A DNA stretch of 38,117 nt from an uncultured Eubacteriales bacterium. Its GTDB lineage: Bacteria > Bacillota > Clostridia > Christensenellales > CAG-138. Shown here one piece after another: positions 17,694 through 32,915 of this stretch. A program made the translations under genes and the position numbers. The stretch covers positions 1-38,117 of the forward strand of contig CACWJZ010000010.1 of NCBI GenBank assembly GCA_902761365.1. Direction: 5' to 3'. Under the pieces are notes generated by a model. The model saw nothing but the letters and a program-made list of their open reading frames with translations, had not been told where the DNA came from and made no database searches. Position 1 is the stretch's first letter. Each line of letters opens with the position of its first letter.

Positions 17694-17776
17694 CGATCAA
17701 CGGGCATCTTTTTTTCTGCTTTTGTTCAAAACAAGATTTTTTGTGAGATAGCCAACCGGAGATAACAGAAAGCGAT

Positions 17777-18193
17777 ATGATAGATTTGTCACAAAGATTG
17801 ATAGAAGCTAAAAATGTTGCTGAAGACCTAATGCAAAGCAAGACGTTTTCGTTTTGCGGGTTAACCCCCTAAATGCTGGACAGTGTACCGGGCGTGTATG
17901 CGATTTTCGATCACGACAAGGATGGTACCTTGTATGTCGGCAGGACGAAGAACATTCGCCGACGCCTCTACACGAACCATTTGATGGGCCCCAGTACGAA
18001 TGCGCGCTTGAAAAAGTATTTGGCGGAAGATCCGATGCGACCGGATATTCCCGATATGGCGGCTGCAAAGAAGTATCTGCTGGATCGTTGCGAATTCCGA
18101 TATATTCGCGTGGATGATATGACATTGCGGGGACAGGTGGAGGGACTGCTGAGTTATCTTCTGGACGTTGCCTATATCCACGAAGAACACTAA
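17777..18193 (+). pseudogene. GIY-YIG nuclease-like gene with an in-frame stop
   Basis: From the ATG at 17777 the frame runs 31 codons (MIDLSQRLIEAKNVAEDLMQ and on) to a TAA at 17870-17872. It then continues in the same frame for 106 codons with the GIY-YIG signature: GVYAIFD, then LYVGRTKNIRRRLYTNH. The ATG directly after the TAA has no ribosome site, whereas GGAG lies before 17777. The simplest reading is one 138-codon gene broken by a nonsense mutation. The alternative is a short protein starting at 17873. Base composition is lower in GC than in the neighbours. The biological role of this small single-domain group is not known to me. Confidence 0.75.
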
Positions 18194-23397: not shown

Positions 23398-24354
23398 TTA
23401 CACGATGCGTTCCAGATGGACCTGCTCCACGGCCCGGAGGTACCCGGACAAAAGGTCCTCGAAGTATCGGATGGGGCGAGGGAGATAGCGATCCCGGAGC
23501 CGGATCAGGTTCACCTGCTGGATCAAAGGTTGGCCGTTGTACAGCAGGGGGAAGATGTTGATGTCCTCCGGGATCTCTTGGCGCTGCTCCGCCAGACACA
23601 CGTGGGGGATGAAGGCGGCGGCCAGCCGCTCAAAGCAGATGGAGGCACTAATGTGGGTATAGGTGCTGGTGATATAGGACCGGGGCTTGATTTGGGCTTC
23701 GGCAAAGCACTCGTAGATCTTTTCCCCGATTCGGTTCTCCAGCAGACAGAAGGGGAGTTGAGAGAAGTTGCCCAGATAGGCTCCGTTAGCCGAGCAGGCC
23801 TTAAGGGACTCCGCCTCGTCCCCGTAGTATTCCTGCAGCAGGGAATCCGCCACGCAAAGATACACCTGGTCATCCATCATGCGGTCCTCCGTCAGCCGTG
23901 GGTCCGCTTTTCTGGATACGGTGAGGGCCAGATCCAGTTCCCCGTCCAGCACCAATTCCGTGAGCTCCGAGGAGATGGTGTCCGTGAGCCGTATCTCCAC
24001 CTGGGGAAAGCGCTCTGAAAACTGGGGCAGGATATGGGGCAAGCTGGTGTTCATCCGCAGGGTGCTGGCACCGAAGCGCAGGATGCCCCGCTCCTGCTGT
24101 TCAATGTCCGACAGGATGGCTTTCAGATTGGCTTCTTCATTCAATATGGTCTTGGCGGAGGAGAGCACGTATTCTCCGGCAGGGGTCAGGGACATGGCGG
24201 GCTTGCGATACAGCAGCGGCGTCCCGTAATAGCTTTCCAGGCGCGCGATATGGTTGCTCAGGGTCTGCTGGGAGATGTACAGCCGCTCCGCCGTCCGGGT
24301 CATGTGCAGATCCTTGGCGAGCTCTGAGAAATAGTATAGGCTGACCAGTTCCAT
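23398..24354 (-). CDS. LysR family transcriptional regulator
   Basis: Protein of 318 residues. The N-terminal winged helix (1-60) has YYFSELAKDLHMTRTAERLY and ISQQTLSNHIARLE. The effector-binding domain follows from about 85 (RFGASTLRMNTSLPHILPQF). The ATG at 24354 with GGGAGG upstream is preferred over an earlier in-frame start that would add 13 residues. It diverges from the tct operon, the classic layout for a LysR regulator and its target. A 16-base palindrome in the shared region also occurs before the rraA gene, so this protein probably controls both transcripts and itself. The effector is likely the imported carboxylate or a breakdown product. Confidence 0.93.
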   Translation of the reverse strand: MELVSLYYFSELAKDLHMTRTAERLYISQQTLSNHIARLESYYGTPLLYRKPAMSLTPAGEYVLSSAKTILNEEANLKAILSDIEQQERGILRFGASTLRMNTSLPHILPQFSERFPQVEIRLTDTISSELTELVLDGELDLALTVSRKADPRLTEDRMMDDQVYLCVADSLLQEYYGDEAESLKACSANGAYLGNFSQLPFCLLENRIGEKIYECFAEAQIKPRSYITSTYTHISASICFERLAAAFIPHVCLAEQRQEIPEDINIFPLLYNGQPLIQQVNLIRLRDRYLPRPIRYFEDLLSGYLRAVEQVHLERIV

Positions 24355-24366
24355 ATGTGCCTCCCG

Positions 24367-24382
24367 CACAAAAAAACTTTGT
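24367..24382. promoter_or_regulatory. Predicted LysR operator, tct side
   Basis: CACAAAAAAACTTTGT, with ACAAA and TTTGT as inverted half-sites. The identical 16 bases occur at 32409-32424. Its centre lies about 65 bases upstream of the predicted tct transcript start, the usual place of a LysR recognition site. Confidence 0.7.
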
Positions 24383-24404
24383 TGAAAAGTCAAAATATCG
24401 CTGT

Positions 24405-24433
24405 TTGCTTTGGGACTCCCTTAATAGTAATAT
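24405..24433 (+). promoter_or_regulatory. Promoter of the tct operon
   Basis: TTGCTT (24405-24410), 17 bases and TAATAT (24428-24433), which predicts a start near 24440. The -35 is imperfect, as expected for an activated promoter. Confidence 0.6.
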
Positions 24434-24498
24434 AAAACCGTAGAAAACACAATAGTTTTCGGCTCCCGGCACAAATCATTTTCAAAAGGAGAAAAAAC

Positions 24499-25491
24499 AT
24501 GAAACGCACCATCGCCCTGATCCTCGTCCTCCTGATGGTCTTCACCGTTTTTGCCGCCTGCGGCAGCAAGACCGAAACCAAGACCGAGACCAAGACCGAA
24601 ACCAAGTCCGCTGGCGCTGACTGGCCCAAGCAGCCCGTTAACGTGGTCTGCCCCGCGGCGGCCGGCGGCGGCACCGACAACGCCCTGCGTCTGCAGAACG
24701 AGTACTTCGTGAAGAAGACCGGTCAGTCCTTCGTCATCGACAACATCACCGGCATCGCTGGCTATGAGAAGACCTATCAGGCCAACACCGATGGGTACAA
24801 CTTCATCTGCGGCACCACCACCATCTTCACCTCCGAGCTGGACGGCACCCTGACCTATGACTGGGACGATTACGAGATGGTAGGCTTCGCCTCCACGCCC
24901 TACAACTTCAATTGCGTGGCGGTCCGTGCCGATTCTCCCTACCAGACCATCAACGAGCTGCTGGACGCCGCTAAAGCCAATCCTTCCTCCGTCACCGGCG
25001 GCATCACCATGACCGGCCAGCCCCTGATGATCACCTCCGCCCTCCAGAAGGTTCTTGGCTATGAGCTGTATCTGGCGGATGTGGGTAACGCCGGCGAGCG
25101 CAATGCGGCCCTCCTCGGCGGCCATGTGGATTGGATCATGAACAACACCTCCTCCTGCGATCCCTATGTGAAGTCCGGCGACTTCCGCATCCTGGCGGTT
25201 TGCGGCGACGAGCGGTATCCCATGAATCCCGATGTCCCCACCTTCAAAGAGATGGGCATCGACTTCTCCTTCCCCTCTCAGCCCATGGTGTGGCTGGCCC
25301 CCAAGGGCACGCCCAAGGAAGTCTGCGAAGCCTTCAACAAGATCCTTCGCGAGATCAACGACGATCCCAACTACCAGAACGATGTCAAGACCAAGCTGAA
25401 CTCCATCGTGAACGATATTCCCACCGTGGAAGAGTCCATCAAGAAGGCTGAGGAGTACAAGGCCGCCCTGGCCCCCTATGTAAAGAAATAA
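24499..25491 (+). CDS. tctC: Tripartite tricarboxylate transporter binding protein (TctC/Bug family)
   Basis: Protein of 330 residues: a lipoprotein with lipobox FAAC (Cys21), a threonine/glutamate/lysine linker built from repeated TETK units (encoded by a 12-base tandem repeat near 24572-24606), then the Bug fold. The latter has WPKQPVNVVCPAAAGGGTDN at the start, the family loop for carboxylate binding. It captures an organic acid outside the cell for the TctAB membrane part. AAAGGAG precedes the start. A hairpin after the gene (25505-25543) may let this protein be made in excess of the membrane parts. The exact ligand cannot be read from sequence; Bug proteins bind many di- and tricarboxylates and aromatic acids. 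Confidence 0.93.
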   Translation: MKRTIALILVLLMVFTVFAACGSKTETKTETKTETKSAGADWPKQPVNVVCPAAAGGGTDNALRLQNEYFVKKTGQSFVIDNITGIAGYEKTYQANTDGYNFICGTTTIFTSELDGTLTYDWDDYEMVGFASTPYNFNCVAVRADSPYQTINELLDAAKANPSSVTGGITMTGQPLMITSALQKVLGYELYLADVGNAGERNAALLGGHVDWIMNNTSSCDPYVKSGDFRILAVCGDERYPMNPDVPTFKEMGIDFSFPSQPMVWLAPKGTPKEVCEAFNKILREINDDPNYQNDVKTKLNSIVNDIPTVEESIKKAEEYKAALAPYVKK

Positions 25492-25504
25492 GATCCCGCA
25501 TAAT

Positions 25505-25543
25505 CCTCCCTGCCGCGCTCGCTCAAGGGGCATGGCAGGGAGG
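25505..25543 (+). terminator. Intercistronic hairpin between tctC and tctB
   Basis: Perfect ten-base arms CCTCCCTGCC (25505-25514) and GGCAGGGAGG (25534-25543). The T-run is weak, so it is more likely a partial terminator or an mRNA-stabilising end for tctC. Confidence 0.7.
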
Positions 25544-25582
25544 TTCTCTCTACAACAGGAGTCTTTATAAAAGGAGTCATCT

Positions 25583-26128
25583 ATGAAGAAAATCGATAGC
25601 GTGATCGCCGGCATCATTCGCGGCTTTCACATCTACAATGACACGATCCTGGGTGCGATCCTGTTCATCGGCTCCCTGATCCTGTTCATCCAGTCGTTCT
25701 CCATCTCCATCATGAAGAATCCGGTCTCCTCTCTCGATACGGCCAGGTTCTTTCCCCAGTTGGTTTTCGGCGCTCTGATGCCCATCGGCATCCTCCTCCT
25801 CATCCGCGGCATCATTCGGGCCAAGGACCAGAAATCCAGCGCTCCCGAGGGGGAAAAGCTGGAAACCGGCGTCGTGGCCTTCAAACGCTCTGTCATCGCC
25901 CTGGCGGCCATCGCGATCTTCCTCCTTCTGATGGAGCCTCTTGGCTTCATCCCGGCGGCCATCCTCTACATGCTGTTCAACATGTTCTACATGTGTGAGC
26001 GGGCGGCCTGGAAGCCTTGGCTCTTCGTGATTGTCGCTGTGGTAGTGGCTGTAGGCGCCTACTTCATCTTCCGCCAGTTCATCTACGTCCGTCTGCCTGC
26101 GGGCATTTTGAAGGGGGTGCTTGGCTAA
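25583..26128 (+). CDS. tctB: Tripartite tricarboxylate transporter small membrane subunit
   Basis: Protein of 181 residues with four predicted helices: LGAILFIGSLILFIQSF, LVFGALMPIGILLLI, VIALAAIAIFLLLM and LFVIVAVVVAVGAYFIF. The motif SSLDTARFFPQLV after the first helix is typical of TctB. Its stop codon TAA shares one base with the ATG of tctA, so the two are coupled. It forms the membrane complex with TctA and is needed for carboxylate uptake driven by an ion gradient. Confidence 0.9.
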   Translation: MKKIDSVIAGIIRGFHIYNDTILGAILFIGSLILFIQSFSISIMKNPVSSLDTARFFPQLVFGALMPIGILLLIRGIIRAKDQKSSAPEGEKLETGVVAFKRSVIALAAIAIFLLLMEPLGFIPAAILYMLFNMFYMCERAAWKPWLFVIVAVVVAVGAYFIFRQFIYVRLPAGILKGVLG

Positions 26129-27636
26129 TGTTACTGAACGGTTTTACGTCCCTGCTTTCCCTGGAGATGATCCTGCTGATGTTCGGCGGCGTCATCGTGG
26201 GCATCATCTTCGGCGCCATCCCCGGCCTCTCGGCCACCATGGCCATCGTGCTGTTTTTGCCCATCACCTTCAACATGGGCACCACCCAGGCCTTTGCGTT
26301 GCTGGTGGCCCTGTACATCGGCGGCGTGTCCGGCGGTCTGATCTCCGCCATTCTGATCAACATCCCCGGTTCGGCCATGTCCATCGCCACCTGCTATGAC
26401 GGCCACCCCATGGCCAACTCCGGCCACGCACAGCGGGCCTTGGGCATCGGCGTATTCTTCTCTTTCCTGGGCACCGTGATCTCCCTGGCCATCATGATGG
26501 TGGCGGCGCCGGCCCTGGCCAGCATCGCCGTGAAGATGAGCTCCTTCGAGATCTTTTCCATGACCTTCTGCGCCATCGCCCTGGTCACGGGCGTGGGCTC
26601 CAAGGACGTTTTGAAAGCCCTGGCCGCCGCCTTCTTTGGCATCGCCTTCTGCCTTATCGGCATGGCGCCCGTGGACGGCGCCACCCGGTACATCTTCGGC
26701 AGCAACAAGCTTCTGAGCGGCATTCCTCTGACCAGCGCTGTGGTCGGTATGTTCGCGGTCACCGAGATCCTCAAGACCGTGGGCAAGAAGATCTCCGCCA
26801 ACAAGCTGGAGCAGCGGCACCGTGAAAAGATCAAGGGCTTCGGCTTCTCCTTCAAGGAGTTTGTGGGCCAGATCAAGAACCTGATCGTCTCCGCTGCCGT
26901 GGGTCTCGGCATCGGCTTTTTGCCTGGCATGGGCGGGTCCTTGGCCAACCAAGTCGCCTATATCGCCGTGCAGAAGACCTCCAAGCATCCGGAGAAGTTC
27001 GGCACCGGCATCATGGACGGCATCGTGGCCTCCGAGACCTCCAACAACGCGTCCATCGGCGGCGCCATGATCCCGCTGCTGGCGTTGGGCATCCCCGGTG
27101 ACGGCCCCACCGCCATGCTGCTCTCCGCCTTCACCATCCACGGCATCGTGGCCGGCCCGTTGCTCTTCAAGACCAGCGGTCCCCTGGTGTACACCGTGTT
27201 TGCGGCCATGATCGTCTGCTCCATCATCATGCTCATCGTGGAGTTCTTCGGCATACCCGTGTTCGCCAAGGTCATCGACGTACCCCGGCAGATCCTCTTC
27301 CCGGTGGTGTTGGTCATCTGCGTGGTGGCGGCCTTCTCCAACAACAAGATCATGTTCGACTGCTGGATGCTCCTGTTCTTCGGCATCATGGGCGTGGTCC
27401 TGGGCAAGTTCAACTTCCCGCGGACGCCTATGATCCTGGGCCTGGTCCTGGGACAGAACCTGGAGACCAACCTCCGGCGCGCCCTGCAGCTGTCCCGCGG
27501 CAGCTTCGCCCCCTTCTTCACCCGTCCCGTGAGCTGCATCCTGTTGTGCCTGGGCCTGTTCTTCATTATCAGCGCCATCGTTCGCCAGTTCGTAGATCTG
27601 GCCAAGGGCAAGAAGATCAAGGAAAACGAAGCCTGA
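26128..27636 (+). CDS. tctA: Tripartite tricarboxylate transporter large membrane subunit
   Basis: Protein of 502 residues with about twelve membrane helices. Family signatures include IFGAIPGLSATMAIVLFLPI near the N-terminus, the repeat-like partner GIGFLPGMGGSLANQVAYI in the second half and GGAMIPLLALGIPGDGPTAM. The ATG at 26128 overlaps the tctB stop by one base; an upstream extension of the frame is rejected because it lies inside tctB. It is the transport channel of the uptake system. A perfect hairpin follows the stop at 27644-27670, before the hydrolase gene. Confidence 0.94.
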   Translation: MLLNGFTSLLSLEMILLMFGGVIVGIIFGAIPGLSATMAIVLFLPITFNMGTTQAFALLVALYIGGVSGGLISAILINIPGSAMSIATCYDGHPMANSGHAQRALGIGVFFSFLGTVISLAIMMVAAPALASIAVKMSSFEIFSMTFCAIALVTGVGSKDVLKALAAAFFGIAFCLIGMAPVDGATRYIFGSNKLLSGIPLTSAVVGMFAVTEILKTVGKKISANKLEQRHREKIKGFGFSFKEFVGQIKNLIVSAAVGLGIGFLPGMGGSLANQVAYIAVQKTSKHPEKFGTGIMDGIVASETSNNASIGGAMIPLLALGIPGDGPTAMLLSAFTIHGIVAGPLLFKTSGPLVYTVFAAMIVCSIIMLIVEFFGIPVFAKVIDVPRQILFPVVLVICVVAAFSNNKIMFDCWMLLFFGIMGVVLGKFNFPRTPMILGLVLGQNLETNLRRALQLSRGSFAPFFTRPVSCILLCLGLFFIISAIVRQFVDLAKGKKIKENEA

Positions 27637-27643
27637 TGCACCG

Positions 27644-27670
27644 CCTCTGCCCGTCCTGTGCGGGCAGAGG
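27644..27670 (+). terminator. Intercistronic hairpin after tctA
   Basis: Perfect ten-base arms CCTCTGCCCG (27644-27653) and CGGGCAGAGG (27661-27670), with no T-run. It probably tunes expression between transport and enzyme genes. Confidence 0.65.
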
Positions 27671-27703
27671 ATACCAAGACAGACAATACGCTGGAGGAAT
27701 ACT

Positions 27704-28531
27704 ATGAGCATGAATGCCCTTGAGGAGCGTCTCAACGGCTGGTTCCGGGCTCCCTGGCTCATCTACCACAAGCCCTTCGAGATCGTGGACCACGTCTATT
27801 TCGTGGGCAACACCTGGGTATCCGCCTTCCTGCTGGATACGGACGAAGGCCTGGTCCTCATCGACTGCGCCATCCAGGAGACCTTGTACCAGATGATCGA
27901 CAGCTTCTATCAGCTGGGCTTCGATCCCCACGACCTGAAGAAGATCCTTTTGACCCACGGCCACTTCGACCATTGCGGCGCCGCCGGTTCTTTGCAGAAG
28001 ATGAGCGGCTGCGAGGTCTGGGTGGGCGAAGGGGACGGCAACTTCTTCACCGAACATCGGGAGTGGATCGCCCACGAGGACCGCTGCCCCGAGTTCGAGG
28101 TCACCGGCTACTACGACTATACGAAGCCCATCGACCTGGGCAACTTCCGGCTGGAAGCCGTTCACTGCCCCGGCCACACGGAAGGGACTACGTCCTTCTT
28201 CTTCGAGGCCACCTACCGGGGGGAGCGGGTCAACTGCGCCATCCACGGGGGCCTGGGCGCGGGGGTCCTGACGGACAGCAACCTGGAGGCCATGGGCCTG
28301 CGCAAGTCCCTGCGGGAGGATTATCTGGTCAGCATCGAGAAGGTGCTGGACCGTCCCGTGGACGTGGTACTGCCCTCCCACGCGGGCCATCCCGTGGGCT
28401 ACGACTTCTTCGGCATCGCGGACAGCAAGCCCGGTGCAGGAGATACCTTCGTGGATAAGGGCGCCTGGAAGCGGATGCTGACCGCTAAGCGGGCTGAGAT
28501 CGTGAAGCTGATCGAAAACAGCAAGCTGTGA
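27704..28531 (+). CDS. MBL-fold metallo-hydrolase
   Basis: Protein of 275 residues of the metallo-beta-lactamase fold, with the two-metal motif THGHFDHCGAA (His85, His87, Asp89, His90), a further histidine in HCPGHTEGT and another in PSHAGH. It has no signal peptide. The family hydrolyses esters, lactones, thioesters and similar bonds, so the activity cannot be named. GGAGG precedes the start, and it lies between tctA and an amidohydrolase in a predicted catabolic operon. Inference: ring opening or ester/thioester cleavage of the imported acid or a product. Confidence 0.88.
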   Translation: MSMNALEERLNGWFRAPWLIYHKPFEIVDHVYFVGNTWVSAFLLDTDEGLVLIDCAIQETLYQMIDSFYQLGFDPHDLKKILLTHGHFDHCGAAGSLQKMSGCEVWVGEGDGNFFTEHREWIAHEDRCPEFEVTGYYDYTKPIDLGNFRLEAVHCPGHTEGTTSFFFEATYRGERVNCAIHGGLGAGVLTDSNLEAMGLRKSLREDYLVSIEKVLDRPVDVVLPSHAGHPVGYDFFGIADSKPGAGDTFVDKGAWKRMLTAKRAEIVKLIENSKL

Positions 28532-28544
28532 TTCCCTGTAATTG

Positions 28545-28574
28545 CCCGGTTGGGGCCTGCATCCCCCGGCCGGG
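28545..28574 (+). terminator. Intercistronic hairpin before the amidohydrolase
   Basis: CCCGG/CCGGG and GGGG/CCCC arms within 28545-28574, with a small internal loop. It is the third hairpin placed between genes of this operon. Confidence 0.5.
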
Positions 28575-28608
28575 TATTTCCTATTTGAGAGAGAGGAACT
28601 GGCACGTC

Positions 28609-29760
28609 ATGTATCAGCTTATCATCAAAAACGGACGGGTCCTGGACCCGGCTAACGGCATAGATCGGGTGGCCAGCGTGGCCGTGGAGAACGGCCGCAT
28701 CGTGGGCGTCAACGGTTTCGAGGGGGCGGAGGCGCTGCAGGTGGTGGACGCCACCGGCTGCATCGTGACCCCCGGTCTCATCGACCACCATGCCCATCTG
28801 TACCCGCTGGCGGCCATCGGCCTGCCTGCCGAGGCCGTGTGCTTCGCTTCCGGTGTGACCACCGCCGTGGACGCGGGCAGCACGGGCTGCGACACCTTTG
28901 GGGACTACGAGACCTTCCTGGGTCAAAGCAAGCTTCGCATCCGGGCCTATCTGAACGTATGCTCCATCGGTCTTGCATCTTTGCCCCGCTGCATGGAGGA
29001 TGTGGACCCGGCCCACTTCGACGAGGAGGCGATCCGGGAGACCTTCGATCATTTCGGTGATAGGCTTCTGGGCCTCAAGCTTCGCACCAGCCGGGAGATC
29101 GTGGGCGAGCTGGGCTTTGCGCCCCTGAAGGCCACGGTGGCCCTGGCGGACAAGCTGGGGGTGCCGGTGATGGTCCATTGCACCAACCCGCCGGGCAGCA
29201 TCCCGGAGCTTCTCTCCATCCTGCGGCCCGGGGACGTGATGACCCACATGTACATGAACAAGGGCCAAACCCTGCTGGACGGGGGCAAGACCGTCTGTGA
29301 GGCAGCCTACCGGGCCAGGGAGCGGGGCGTGCTCTTTGAAGCGGCCGACGCCCGGGCCCACTTCTCCTTTGAGGTCAGCGAGCCCGCCATCCGAGAGGGG
29401 TTCTACCCCGACATCATCGCCACGGATCTGACCAAGTTCAGCATGCACTTTCGGCCCACGGCTTTCGACCTCGTCAACCAGGTGGCCAAGTACACGCAGC
29501 TCGGCATCCCCTTTGAGCAGGTCGTGGCCTGCTGCACCAGCCGCCCCGCCGAGGACATGGGCCTTGCGGGGGAGATCGGGTGCCTGAGCCCCGGCGCCTG
29601 CGCCGACATCGCCGTGTTCCGGCAGGAGCCCTGCGCCATCGAGTTCGGCGATCGGCCCTACGGCGACCCGGATTGCGTGACGCGCCCCTGCAGCTGGCGG
29701 CTTCGGACCATGCTCACCGTCCGCAACGGGGAGATGGTCTACCGGGACCAGATGCTGTAA
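28609..29760 (+). CDS. Amidohydrolase family metal-dependent hydrolase
   Basis: Protein of 383 residues of the amidohydrolase superfamily (dihydroorotase/deacetylase branch). The N-terminal strand LIIKNGRVLDPANGIDRVAS is typical. Metal ligands are visible as DHHAHLY, a lysine in LGLKLRTS that may be carboxylated, histidines in VMVHCTN and MTHMY, and the aspartate in IIATDLTKF. The C-terminal strand LTVRNGEMVYRDQML closes the small barrel. The ATG at 28609, with GAGAGG upstream, is preferred over an earlier in-frame start that lacks family sequence. It probably opens a cyclic amide or removes an acyl group in the pathway of the tct operon. The substrate is unknown. Confidence 0.88.
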   Translation: MYQLIIKNGRVLDPANGIDRVASVAVENGRIVGVNGFEGAEALQVVDATGCIVTPGLIDHHAHLYPLAAIGLPAEAVCFASGVTTAVDAGSTGCDTFGDYETFLGQSKLRIRAYLNVCSIGLASLPRCMEDVDPAHFDEEAIRETFDHFGDRLLGLKLRTSREIVGELGFAPLKATVALADKLGVPVMVHCTNPPGSIPELLSILRPGDVMTHMYMNKGQTLLDGGKTVCEAAYRARERGVLFEAADARAHFSFEVSEPAIREGFYPDIIATDLTKFSMHFRPTAFDLVNQVAKYTQLGIPFEQVVACCTSRPAEDMGLAGEIGCLSPGACADIAVFRQEPCAIEFGDRPYGDPDCVTRPCSWRLRTMLTVRNGEMVYRDQML

Positions 29761-29772
29761 AGGAGCAAGCCT

Positions 29773-30477
29773 ATGCCGGTGGGGATCATCACCAACGTGG
29801 CCGCCGTCGTGATCGGCGGCATCCTGGGCTGCCTGCTGGGCGGCCGGGTGACGGAGCGGTGGAAGAAGCTGTTGAACGACCTGCTGGGCGTGTCCGCCAT
29901 GACCATGGGCATCGTGCTCATCCTGAAGGGAAAGAACCTGTCCCCGGTGATCCTGTCCCTCCTGGTGGGAGGGGTCCTGGGCGAAGCGCTGCAGCTCGAG
30001 AAGCGGGTGAACGGCCTGGTGGTCCGCGTTACGGAAAAGGTCCTCAAGGGCGACGCCATGAGCGAAGGGCATCTTATGCAGATCGCCACGGTCATGGTCC
30101 TCTTCTGCTTCAGCGGCACAGGCTGGTATGGGGCCCTCTTCGAGGGCATGACCGGCGACGGCAGCATCCTCATCACCAAGGCCATCTTGGACGGCATCAC
30201 GGCCTGCATCTTCGCGGCTCTGCTGGGCAGGATCGTCCCCTGCCTGGGCCTGCCCCAGCTTCTGCTGATGCTCCTTTTGTTCTTCGTGGCGGAGCCTCTG
30301 TCGCCCGTCATCACCCCGTCCATGACCGCGGATTTCTCGGCCATCGGCGGCGTCGTCACCCTCTGCGCGGGCCTGCGCATGACCCGCATCAAGACGGACA
30401 TCAAGGTTTTGAACCTGCTGCCCGCCCTGCCCTTAGCCTTCCTCTTTTCCGCCCTCTGGACGGCTTTCATCGGATAA
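29773..30477 (+). CDS. DUF554 membrane protein (YqgA-like)
   Basis: Protein of 234 residues with seven predicted helices. It starts MPVGIITNVAAVVIGGILG and carries SAMTMGIVLILKGKN and GTGWYGALFEGMTGD, the pattern of DUF554 proteins such as YdfK/YqgA. Function is unknown; a role as a transporter or exporter is sometimes proposed. AAGGAG precedes the start, 12 bases after the amidohydrolase stop, so it is the last gene of the tct operon. Two hairpins follow (30552-30588 and 30622-30649). Confidence 0.88.
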   Translation: MPVGIITNVAAVVIGGILGCLLGGRVTERWKKLLNDLLGVSAMTMGIVLILKGKNLSPVILSLLVGGVLGEALQLEKRVNGLVVRVTEKVLKGDAMSEGHLMQIATVMVLFCFSGTGWYGALFEGMTGDGSILITKAILDGITACIFAALLGRIVPCLGLPQLLLMLLLFFVAEPLSPVITPSMTADFSAIGGVVTLCAGLRMTRIKTDIKVLNLLPALPLAFLFSALWTAFIG

Positions 30478-30545
30478 ACGCACTTTCCCTCTTTCTCTGG
30501 CTCTCCTTCTTTGCTCAACAATCTCTCCAAAAAGCAGCCGGGGAA

Positions 30546-30590
30546 AACCGGACAGGACCCGTCGATTCAGGGCGTCGACGGGTCCTGTTC
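30546..30590. repeat. Repeated intergenic hairpin, copy B
   Basis: Fourteen-base perfect arms ACAGGACCCGTCGA (30552-30565) and TCGACGGGTCCTGT (30575-30588) around a nine-base loop. It is nearly the same as copy A near 3303-3343. It lies between the converging tct and dehydrogenase genes and may help end transcription, though it lacks a T-run. Confidence 0.8.
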
Positions 30591-30621
30591 CGTTGTGCTC
30601 ATCTTTGAAAGAACAGAACAA

Positions 30622-30649
30622 GGCCCGCCGTTCATCCCTGCGGCGGGCC
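30622..30649. terminator. Terminator-like hairpin between converging operons
   Basis: Nine-base arms GGCCCGCCG (30622-30630) and CGGCGGGCC (30641-30649). It could end either operon; T-runs are short. Confidence 0.6.
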
Positions 30650-30690
30650 CTGCTCATTTCAGGAGAGATCTATATGAAGTAAGTTAGGTG

Positions 30691-31572
30691 TCAGTCGTTG
30701 GTGGGGCGAATGGCTTCGATGATCTCCGCATAGCCCCTGGGCTTCTCGGTCACGTACTTCTCCGCGAACTTGTAGGGGGCCAGAGCCTCGTGGACGTGCT
30801 TGGCGGCAGCGGACATCTCGGGGGCCAGGTGGCTTTCCTCCTGCATGGCGATGGAGCCCTTCAGCTCCGCGGCCCGGCGGGTGCAGTGAATGGCAGTGCC
30901 GGTGACGAGCCTGTCAAGGTGCTTGGTGAAGGGGATGCCGTCCAGGGACTTAGAGAGGGAGGCCACGATCTGGTCGGACACGTCGTAGGCGTCGGCGGCC
31001 TGCATGGTCTCGATCATCAGGGACGCGATGCCCTTCATGAAGATGGACCGGACCAGCTTGATGGCGGAGGCGGAACCGGCCTTGTCGCCGGCCAGGGTGA
31101 TCCGCATGCCCAGGGGCTCCATGACCTCCTTGAACTTCTCGGCGCCGTTGCCGGAAGCGGTGATGGGCACCCGGTGCTTGTCCTGGGGCAGGGAGCCCAG
31201 CATGGCCGCGTCAGCGAACAGCACGCCGGTGTCCTTGATCTTGTCCCAGATGGCGATCTTGGTGGCGGGGGTGGAGGCGCTCACGTCCGCGTAGATCTGG
31301 CCGGGGCGCAGCTCGTCCTTCACGGTGTTGCACACGTCCATGGTGAAGGAGGAGGGCACCGCCGCGAACAGCACGTCCGCCCAGCGGGCCACTTCCTTGG
31401 GGTCCTCCACCAGCTCCACCTGGGCCTCAGCGGCCCGGGCGTGGACCTGCTGGCCCATGACGGGGTGGTTCATCATGGCGTCGTTGGCACGGATGCCGGT
31501 GGTGCCGTTCTGGGAGAAACCCAGGGCGATGCAGTACGCCGCTTCGCCGAAACCGATAAAACCGATGTTCAT
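30691..31572 (-). CDS. NAD(P)-dependent 3-hydroxyacid dehydrogenase-like oxidoreductase
   Basis: Protein of 293 residues of the 6-phosphogluconate/3-hydroxyisobutyrate dehydrogenase superfamily. The Rossmann loop is GFIGFGEAAYCIALG (residues 4-18). Asp97 in YADVSASTP takes the place of the substrate loop, and Lys172 in SAIKLVRSIFMKG is the likely catalytic lysine. The C-terminal helical part matches the DUF1932 type. It starts 13 bases after the stop of the rraA-like gene with GGGAGG, so the two are one transcript. Likely reaction: reversible oxidation of a beta-hydroxyacid to the oxoacid, before or after the aldolase step. The substrate is not determined by sequence. Confidence 0.88.
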   Translation of the reverse strand: MNIGFIGFGEAAYCIALGFSQNGTTGIRANDAMMNHPVMGQQVHARAAEAQVELVEDPKEVARWADVLFAAVPSSFTMDVCNTVKDELRPGQIYADVSASTPATKIAIWDKIKDTGVLFADAAMLGSLPQDKHRVPITASGNGAEKFKEVMEPLGMRITLAGDKAGSASAIKLVRSIFMKGIASLMIETMQAADAYDVSDQIVASLSKSLDGIPFTKHLDRLVTGTAIHCTRRAAELKGSIAMQEESHLAPEMSAAAKHVHEALAPYKFAEKYVTEKPRGYAEIIEAIRPTND

Positions 31573-31585
31573 GTATGTACCTCCC

Positions 31586-32287
31586 TTACGGCTCGTAGAC
31601 GCCGTCGATGATCTCGAAGCCCTTCTCGTTCAAGGACTTCTCGACCCAGGCCCTATTGGCGGTGCCGTTGCGGGCCGCGATCAGCTTCTTCTCATCCGCC
31701 TCCTGGAACTTGCGGGCCTCCACCAGGATGGAAGCGGCGTCCTTGCGGGGGATGCAGATGATGCCGTCGGGGTCGGCCAGGATGATGTCGCCGGGGTTCA
31801 CACTGATGCCGCCGCAGGAGATGGGCACGTTGATCTCACCGGGGCCTTCCTTGTAGGGGCCGCCGGGGGTGGTGCCGGTGCAGTACACGGGGAAATCCCA
31901 CTTGCCGATCTCATCGATGTCGCGGATGGGACCATCCAGGATGATGCCGGCCACCTTCTTGGTGAGATACAGGTAGGCCATCATGACCTCGCCCATGAGG
32001 GCGCGGGTGTCGTCCTCTTCGTTGGAGACCACCAGCACGTCGCCCTCGTTGCAGAAGTTGAGGGCCGCATGGAGGGTCAGGTTATCGCCGGCGCGGCACT
32101 TCACCGTGTAGGCGGGACCAGCCATCATCTGGGCCTTGGGGCTGCTGACGAGGCGGATGCGGGGGTTCATGGCGCAGCTCCTTCCCATGACGTCCGCGGT
32201 GTTGGACGCAGGGATCTGCTTGAAGGCCTCCACGAGCTCGGGATCAGGCATGTTCCGCTTGAGATAGATTCGCTTTCCGACTGACAT
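31586..32287 (-). CDS. RraA-like aldolase (4-hydroxy-4-methyl-2-oxoglutarate aldolase family)
   Basis: Protein of 233 residues. The family includes the RNase E inhibitor RraA and class II pyruvate aldolases. The catalytic pair is present as Arg122-Asp123 in IILDGPIRDIDEI, with the metal and pyruvate site in LADPDGIICIPR and the earlier loop CRAGDNLTLHAAL. The intact Arg-Asp pair and the link with a dehydrogenase and carboxylate transporter favour an aldolase that splits a 4-hydroxy-2-oxo acid into pyruvate and a second oxo acid, rather than RNase E control. It is the first gene of a two-gene operon with the promoter at 32359-32388 and the palindrome at 32409. Confidence 0.88.
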   Translation of the reverse strand: MSVGKRIYLKRNMPDPELVEAFKQIPASNTADVMGRSCAMNPRIRLVSSPKAQMMAGPAYTVKCRAGDNLTLHAALNFCNEGDVLVVSNEEDDTRALMGEVMMAYLYLTKKVAGIILDGPIRDIDEIGKWDFPVYCTGTTPGGPYKEGPGEINVPISCGGISVNPGDIILADPDGIICIPRKDAASILVEARKFQEADEKKLIAARNGTANRAWVEKSLNEKGFEIIDGVYEP

Positions 32288-32358
32288 GAGATTTCCTCCC
32301 TTTCAAAAATGTGATGGTGAGATACAGGTGATCGAGGTCCATTCCTCTTTACAATGGG

Positions 32359-32388
32359 ATTGTACAGGATTTCCACCAATAAATCCAA
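32359..32388 (-). promoter_or_regulatory. Promoter of the rraA-dehydrogenase operon
   Basis: On the minus strand TTGGAT (32383-32388), 18 bases and TACAAT (32359-32364). The predicted start is near 32352, 65 bases before the start codon. Confidence 0.6.
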
Positions 32389-32408
32389 CAGAGATAATTC
32401 CACTTTTC

Positions 32409-32424
32409 CACAAAAAAACTTTGT
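32409..32424. promoter_or_regulatory. Predicted LysR operator, rraA side
   Basis: CACAAAAAAACTTTGT, identical to 24367-24382; the next base extends the palindrome to CACAAA-N5-TTTGTG. It is centred about 65 bases upstream of the predicted rraA transcript start. Confidence 0.7.
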
Positions 32425-32549
32425 GAAGCGGCCAGGACGGCCGGTTGTCATTGCTTTTGCAAAAGCCCCTGACGATCCAAATACGCCTGAATGTAATTTT
32501 GCCATAAAGTACAGAGAATTATGTGAATTGTGTCAATACAACTTTGCAC

Positions 32550-32915
32550 AAAAAAGGCAATGAAATACTGTTGCAATGCGCTGCAAGCTCTGCTGCGCAT
32601 TATGAGAGGGTTTATCAATAAGCCGTTTGTTATCTCCCGGAAGAACTTCCTGTTCGCGAACACACCGTCGGGCGCCCGGAGCAGTGCTGTATTGTTCAGC
32701 CTGATCGAAACGGCGAAAGAGAACGGGCTCGACCCATACCTGTACCTGGTCTGGCTGCTGAAGGAGGCGCCTGCCCGGTTCGCCACCGACAGAGACTGGG
32801 CAGAATCCCTCCTGCCCCAATACGCGCCGGACTTCTGCAGAACTTAACAACCTATCTCCCGAGCAACGGCAGGGCCGCTTTTCGCGGCCTCGTGCAATTT
32901 TTGTTTGACGCTTAC
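32550..32915 (+). mobile_element. IS66 family right-end remnant
   Basis: A frame ending at 32847 reads NKPFVISRKNFLF, then ANTPSGARSSAVLFSLIETA and ENGLDPYLYLVWLL. This is the well-known C-terminal part of IS66 transposases. The catalytic domain is absent and the left part of the fragment (from about 32550) aligns poorly, so it is a dead remnant. At 32902-32915 TGTTTGACGCTTAC ends in the complement of GTAAGCG, the usual start of IS66 terminal repeats, which marks the right end of the element. No left end is seen. Confidence 0.8.

Follow-up and report, generated by a model that had tools for sequence, protein, structure and literature searches.

Two distant promoters at this locus share an identical 16-base string, which raises the question of whether both are controlled by the LysR-type regulator encoded beside one of them. 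The best explanation, to which we assign a probability of about 0.9, is that both strings are primary operators of the regulator encoded at 23398-24354. This protein appears to switch on two facing clusters of one organic-acid pathway in a relative of rumen clostridia, and the same pattern of matching control sites is present in related bacteria.

The two facing gene clusters

The window (the whole stretch of DNA analysed, 38,117 nucleotides) carries the lysR gene on the minus strand at 23398-24354. Its 318 aa product contains an N-terminal HTH_1 domain (Pfam, 1.8e-16; 60.2 bits, cut-off 26.6) and a C-terminal LysR substrate domain (2.1e-21; 76.7 bits, cut-off 28). A LysR match at 30% was noted in G155.

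On the plus strand follow the genes of a tripartite tricarboxylate transporter, tctC for the solute-binding protein (24499-25491, PF03401, 1.6e-29), tctB (25583-26128, PF07331, 4.2e-17) and tctA (26128-27636, PF01970, 3.5e-135), and then an MBL-fold hydrolase gene (27704-28531, PF00753, 5.2e-19), an amidohydrolase gene (28609-29760) and, by family match, a gene for a DUF554 membrane protein (29773-30477). For the last of these, the stretches read in relatives G005 and G011 gave no match. None of the 25 NCBIfam matches listed for the MBL-fold hydrolase (of 43) reached its curated cut-off, and assignment of this protein as a subclass B3 beta-lactamase was rejected (NF033105, 147.9 bits, cut-off 240); the models closest to the amidohydrolase, PRK12394, PRK09237 and EF_0837, were likewise all under cut-off. 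On the minus strand lie an rraA-like aldolase/decarboxylase gene (31586-32287; PF03737, 5.5e-44; NF004850, 234.4 bits, cut-off 231) and the second gene of its operon, an NAD-binding/DUF1932 dehydrogenase identified by family match (30691-31572). Family models (Pfam, NCBIfam) and structure matches yielded no substrate name for the pathway; the transporter families and the RraA fold suggest a carboxylate. The intergenic region had no plasmid match.

A composite element at both promoters

An exact search of the whole window found CACAAAAAAACTTTGT in exactly two places, 24367-24382 and 32409-32424, as the first-pass annotation had reported, with no third exact match. Allowing up to three mismatches added one place, 17730-17745, which has three; among 100 dinucleotide shuffles of the window, none contained three matches (mean 0.06). 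The additional match was set aside on account of its three mismatches, its dyad-only score of 15 bits and its position outside the best eight profile matches with the second element described below, the nearest of which lies at 17805 (3.6 bits). In the assembly (116 contigs, approximately 69% complete), the 15-mer core ACAAAGTTTTTTTGT occurred exactly at the same two places only. With up to two mismatches it had 6 places versus 8 for a backwards control, and the loose dyad alone is therefore unspecific.

The string is the core of a larger common element, longer than the 16 bases first noticed, which consists of a dyad, ACAAA-N5-TTTGT, followed by TATCnCTGTT, a weak -35 and a -10. Dyad 1 lies at 24368-24382 and dyad 2 at 32410-32424, neither being assigned to a strand. 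When the two sites were aligned in promoter orientation, 32 of the first 44 bases were identical, 22 of these outside the 15-base dyad. CACAAAAAAACTTTGT reads on the plus strand at both places and the promoters are opposed, so that one copy is inverted relative to its promoter; the string match persists nonetheless because the element is a dyad. The sequence match claimed earlier thus holds for the string itself, but the five central bases are unequal once both sites are read towards their promoters. All 35 sites have a C-N11-G dyad and none a centred T-N11-A, which occurs off-centre only (positions 15/27 in 31 sites, 13/25 in 23); for lack of the centred form, the operator is not classed as a canonical T-N11-A LTTR box.

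The second element, TATCGCTGTT, a candidate activation site, occupies 24396-24405 on the plus strand and runs into the -35. It aligns at equal offset with TATCTCTGTT of the rraA promoter (32387-32396, minus strand), which was identified by alignment with the tctC site. The predicted tctC promoter (TTTGCT, 18 bases, TAATAT; 24404-24433, plus strand) is found at equal offset in relatives, and the predicted rraA promoter (TTGGAT, 18 bases, TACAAT; 32359-32388, minus strand) lies at the same offset as that of tctC. With the first base of the dyad as position 1, the -10 hexamer occupies 61-66 in both (24428-24433 and 32364-32359). The expected tctC and rraA starts thus follow their dyad centres (24375 and 32417) by some 65 bases. 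The geometry proposed in the first-pass annotation is probably right in this respect, although the -35/-10 pairs on which it was based are weak. A consensus sigma-70 scan listed neither of them, nor the predicted lysR promoter read from the sequence (TTGTGT, 17 bases, TACTAT; 24424-24452, minus strand), and it is conservation at equal offset that argues for the tctC and rraA pairs. Dyad, second element, -35 and -10 have identical offsets at the tctC and rraA sites, and the offset to the predicted -10 is mostly conserved elsewhere.

The first site had been placed between lysR and tctC. It is indeed upstream of tctC, but its position relative to lysR depends on the start codon of the latter, either ATG at 24354 or TTG at 24393; the TTG start would put dyad 1 inside the gene. 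The ATG is preferred, because it has a ribosome site and ortholog matches start at that residue. With this start, dyad 1 falls within the leader of lysR and abuts the 5' side of GGGAGG, a position that suggests autorepression. Such a location beside a ribosome site could also be expected of an element that works in the RNA, as a leader hairpin or a terminator, and not as a DNA operator. We regard this as highly improbable, and it is unlikely for dyad 2 in particular, which is at an offset typical of an activator and, being upstream of the predicted rraA promoter, would lie outside the rraA transcript.

Conservation with the LysR gene

Within the genus, lysR is 85-90% identical in 4 of the 11 other genomes. 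Inspection of orthologous loci, which the first-pass annotation had proposed as a check, revealed the element at both promoters in both relatives that have both operons (G005 and G011). In each of these two genomes the five central dyad bases differ between the sites, and their identity in the window is therefore partly coincidence. In G009, where the 28 kb read gave no match to tct genes, the rraA promoter retains dyad and second element (29.7 bits); on the lysR side the dyad is retained and the second element is absent (2.6 bits). Across the 12 genus genomes the composite pattern had 10 matches versus 0 for backwards controls: 4 at lysR, 4 at rraA and one each in G004 (approximately 90% complete) and G006 (approximately 70%), neither of which has a lysR match at E 1e-40. 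Both of these last sites have the look of relics next to genes that are missing. G007, which has a partial relative of rraA (residues 126-233), had neither a lysR match nor the composite. The dyad pattern ACAAAGNNNCTTTGT alone occurred exactly at 4 places in the same 12 genomes, all at lysR, rraA or the G006 remnant; with one mismatch it was not enriched (26 forward places, 31 in the control), and specificity hence rests on the composite.

Outside the genus, a site profile of 45 columns was trained on 19 promoters of LysR orthologs; in these sites the stretch with the second element (columns 25-46) is mostly conserved, column 33 excepted. Applied to the window, the profile ranked the two sites first (60.6 and 45.8 bits), the next match being one of 8.3 bits at 32547, which was set aside as weak. 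Without the dyad columns the two sites scored 36.0 and 19.7 bits (next, 15.8). At a threshold of at least 18 bits, 37 matches were found in 33 sequences (534 kb), versus 0 for the reversed profile and 0 for each of 20 column-permuted profiles. Of these, 19 had served to train the profile and one overlaps another match by a shift of one base, leaving 17 independent matches; six of the 17 precede separate tct, dehydrogenase, MBL/amidohydrolase or permease genes (five loci). These data also bear on whether the repeat might be due to chance or to a low-complexity A-tract of no regulatory role. The intergenic stretch is AT-rich and contains an A7 tract, loosened dyad patterns occur as often as their backwards controls, and the central-base identity is in part coincidental, as noted above; the shuffles, the permuted profiles and the conservation in distant orthologs and at separated genes contradict this explanation, which we reject as having next to no probability.

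A perfect ACAAA-N5-TTTGT lies within 170 bases upstream of lysR in 17 of the 21 outside orthologs and a dyad with one mismatch in three (L049, L050 and L066); that of L068 has two mismatches when scored ungapped and, by eye, a 1-base deletion. The three sites of L066 score only 22-37 bits and lack a good -10 at its usual position, the second site of L049 has TAAGGT there, and in L057 the second element is displaced by one base. L058, the cultured Flintibacter muris, has the divergent lysR-rraA pair and an operon behind a second site at L058:7930. As the outside orthologs carry the same element and 14 of the 21 are directly divergent from rraA, rraA is tied to this LysR. Together with the conservation of both promoters in the two relatives, this supports the earlier proposal of one LysR for both operons. 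The LysR tree (computed without the broken or partial L048, L068 and L069) is weakly resolved, with 5 of 22 inner branches starred, and cannot order the events, i.e., whether rraA moved away or tct moved in.

The sites might instead be operators of a different, broader regulator. The absence of a centred T-N11-A, the two genus genomes with a composite site and no lysR match, and a second LysR-family gene about 2.2 kb or less from the extra sites of L055 and L058 are all compatible with this. However, all 21 footprinted outside lysR orthologs have a site of at least 18 bits upstream (19 of them trained the profile), and both lysR-less sites adjoin missing genes. Moreover, a search of 396 genomes of the order gave, outside the genus, 7 composite matches (2-3 mismatches, 6 genomes) versus 6 in the backwards control; the search for lysR itself covered 201 relatives and not every one of the 396. 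We therefore consider another regulator improbable. The observations themselves comprise the sequence and spacing of the sites, their conservation, the specificity of the composite and its occurrence together with this LysR.

Proposed regulation and comparison with known systems

From this evidence we infer binding by the LysR protein, the direction of regulation, an inducer and a common pathway. One dimer of a LysR tetramer would occupy the dyad ACAAA-N5-TTTGT at -65, and the other would contact AAnTATCnCTGTT, the conserved stretch that precedes the weak -35 and extends into it. Upon inducer binding, LysR would recruit RNA polymerase to tctC-tctB-tctA-MBL-amidohydrolase and to rraA-dehydrogenase. 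LysR on dyad 1 may also limit lysR expression, since this dyad adjoins the ribosome site and the predicted lysR and tctC -10 boxes overlap (by 2 bases). On a broader scale, we lean towards an undescribed LysR subfamily, its records titled as several clostridial families, that controls an RraA-centred organic-acid pathway through an operator grammar of its own (the C-N11-G dyad plus the conserved -35-proximal element), the operator moving with, or re-forming in front of, any transporter (TTT, citrate-type, TRAP-type) or hydrolase genes that are added to the pathway. This sequence-based regulon prediction could be confirmed by a single footprint. In gut and rumen clostridia, one signal would link an RraA-like enzyme, a dehydrogenase and two hydrolases with exchangeable carboxylate transporters, and with the motif supplied, further pathway genes may be found and the inducer guessed.

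Searches of the open-licence literature found nothing joining LysR, RraA and tripartite tricarboxylate transport, nothing joining the aldolase name with TctC, nothing on "RraA family protein" or DUF6282, and nothing that brings together at least four of LysR, operator, gut, oxaloacetate decarboxylase and RraA-like; for Firmicutes LysR-type regulons with a tricarboxylate transporter, nothing was found beyond a Cupriavidus genome paper. The predicted regulon is well supported and would be a new one of a known kind.

The RraA-like protein matches the structure 3noj, a 4-carboxy-4-hydroxy-2-oxoadipate aldolase/oxaloacetate decarboxylase (E 1.1e-27). The two belong to one fold family and may have aldol-cleavage or decarboxylation chemistry in common, but the models for this enzyme score under cut-off (NF006731, 134.2 bits versus 179; LigK, 116.4 versus 304.5). 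Among solved LysR structures the best match of the regulator is CcpC (5z72/7dmw, E 2.5e-17, residues 1-167), for which passages of PMC8514465 name citrate as the inducer and place a dyad symmetry element at -68 to -28 of citB. LysR architecture and a dyad symmetry element are common to both; however, the match covers the N-terminal half only, the target genes are others, and equivalence with CcpC was rejected (NF058504, 88.4 bits, cut-off 400).

A close parallel is with divergent LysR-type regulons, in which, according to passages of PMC4834489, the primary site is found near -65 and another one near -35. As in those systems, lysR is divergent from its predicted target with a palindrome between them (tctC in the window, G005 and G011), about 65 bases before the predicted start, and a second stretch at -35, a candidate contact site, accompanies a weak target promoter. 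Unlike in those systems, the dyad here has no centred T-N11-A and, instead of covering the promoter of lysR, lies in its leader by the ribosome site; the second element shows sequence conservation, whereas the source speaks of non-conserved sequences, and a second full copy would serve an operon 8 kb away.

The operator pair in the window

A 16-base string, in which we recognize the dyad ACAAA-N5-TTTGT, had been reported in the first-pass annotation at 24367-24382, between lysR and tctC, and at 32409-32424, before the rraA-like aldolase/decarboxylase gene (rraA); it was recovered at both positions, and an exact-match search of the window gave no third place. The assembly (2.32 Mb, 116 contigs, ca. 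69% complete) contains the 15-base core of this string exactly twice. At one of the two promoters the string stands in reverse orientation, which makes no difference to a dyad but leads the string alone to understate the match between the sites. Read in promoter orientation, both sites run from ACAAA-N5-TTTGT through nGAAAAGTnnAAnTATCnCTGTTnGnTTT to a -10 at positions 61-66, and they agree in 32 of the first 44 bases, 22 of these outside the dyad. The dyad and the second element, a TATCnCTGTT-like stretch running into the -35, are together termed the composite.

The lysR gene (23398-24354, minus strand) is divergent from tctC-tctB-tctA, which are followed by an MBL-fold gene, an amidohydrolase gene and a DUF554 gene (24499-30477, plus strand); rraA and a DUF1932 dehydrogenase gene (32287-30691, minus strand) face this group. 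The DUF554 gene (29773-30477) lies between the amidohydrolase and dehydrogenase genes. Upstream of the rraA promoter, 32530-32847 encodes part of the C-terminus of an IS66 transposase (PF13817, E 2.4e-10), a fragment that may mark how the rraA operon came to its place.

Conservation within the genus

The composite was searched, allowing up to 3 mismatches, in 12 genomes of the genus, five of which carry lysR; 10 matches were found in 7 genomes, as opposed to 0 for the backwards control pattern. Matches lie at lysR in genomes G000, G002, G005 and G011, and at rraA in G000, G005, G009 and G011. The first-pass annotation had predicted a single LysR regulon, for which conservation at both promoters of orthologous loci would speak; G005 and G011 indeed have the composite at both genes, in the window's layout except that DUF554 was unmatched in the stretches that were read. 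On the opposite side, the genus genomes were not enriched in the dyad pattern when one mismatch was allowed (26 places vs 31 in the control), a core match with one mismatch in G007 sits in a stretch without window gene matches, and no composite was found at the partial rraA relative of that genome.

In G009, lysR and rraA are ~16 kb apart, and the surrounding 28 kb that were read gave no match to the tct, MBL, amidohydrolase or dehydrogenase genes. The dyad before lysR is kept there and the second element lost, a pattern to be expected if autoregulation needs no more than the dyad after loss of the divergent operon. The composite also occurs in G004 and G006, where lysR and rraA were unmatched (E 1e-40). 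The G004 site has a degraded -10, and pathway genes were not found in the 3 kb read. By eye, the G006 site (contig C205, locus L037, ~1501) has an intact-looking operator-promoter followed by a terminator resembling the one after the window dehydrogenase gene; apparently it is the scar of a deletion that removed rraA and its partner. The G002 lysR (contig C70, locus L016, 14738-15748) has an internal stop and lies at the contig end, and its operator, by eye, lacks a promoter -10 and leads into a DUF6282-like reading frame, reflecting either decay or the assembly edge.

Orthologous loci outside the genus

A non-exhaustive LysR protein scan with short peptide patterns, one genome per species, returned 29 loci, 4 from genus relatives and 25 others; the closest named relatives are the MAGs RUG14416, RUG13181, RUG14713 and RUG11425, presumably rumen genomes. 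Twenty-one of the 25 (L049-L069) were used for footprinting, omitting L070 (C-terminal part only), L071 (51 residues), and L072 and L073 (28-29% identity). A perfect ACAAA-N5-TTTGT was present upstream of lysR in 17 of the 21, with one mismatch in three and two in L068. In 14 loci, lysR is directly divergent, within ~220 bases, from an rraA ortholog with 79-88% identity over the matched part. That position is held by a 46% relative in L050 and the amidohydrolase in L049; a dehydrogenase comes first and rraA second in L061, L066 and L069, rraA is ~1.2 kb away in L067, and only lysR matched a window gene in L057. In L054, rraA-tctC-tctB-tctA-MBL-amidohydrolase form one run behind the single operator found in the locus; this is the set split in two by the window, except for the dehydrogenase and DUF554.

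A 45-column profile was built from 19 of these sites (L066 and L068 dropped), with leave-one-out scores of 30.1 to 66.0 bits. It placed the two window sites at the top of the ranking, far ahead of the next match. Across 33 sequences (534 kb, two G009 stretches overlapping), 37 matches reached at least 18 bits: the 19 training sites, one overlapping duplicate and 17 others; the reversed profile and each of 20 permuted profiles gave none. Additional copies precede a dehydrogenase in L049, TTT (tripartite tricarboxylate transporter) genes in L064, L055 and L058 (in the latter two behind another gene, which we read as HD-type), and both an MBL/amidohydrolase pair and a citrate-type permease in L066. 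This goat abomasum MAG locus has three profile matches before different pathway genes, and in it the permease stands in place of a TTT system. Of the omitted loci, L071 was later found to have a site scoring 60.5 bits; the other three (L070, L072, L073) had none. In 396 genomes of the order, the composite gave 7 matches outside the genus, spread over 6 genomes and each with 2-3 mismatches; the backwards control gave a comparable 6.

Putative pathway and comparison with LysR-type regulators

The combination of an RraA-like enzyme, a dehydrogenase, an MBL hydrolase, an amidohydrolase and an organic-acid transporter suggests carboxylate uptake and cleavage. Transporters in the relatives are of the TTT type, the citrate type (PF03600) or, in L067 only, the TRAP type (PF06808); a Pfam search with the transporter-like protein of L062, the one such protein tested, gave no match. 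Near rraA are also D-2-hydroxyacid dehydrogenase genes (L053, L065) and DUF6282 genes (L052, L064).

The conserved operator pair is real and the prediction of a LysR regulon well supported, its members being new and its kind ordinary. A dyad at -65, a second element at -35, poor -35 hexamers and overlapping divergent promoters would make up the anatomy of a LysR activator, which the predicted sites probably match. According to PMC4834489, the typical LysR-type regulator binds two sites, a palindrome close to -65 and another site at -35, and activates its target while repressing itself. The same paper gives T-N11-A as conserved for such sites, whereas here it is missing from the dyad centre, which has C-N11-G in all 35 sites tested.
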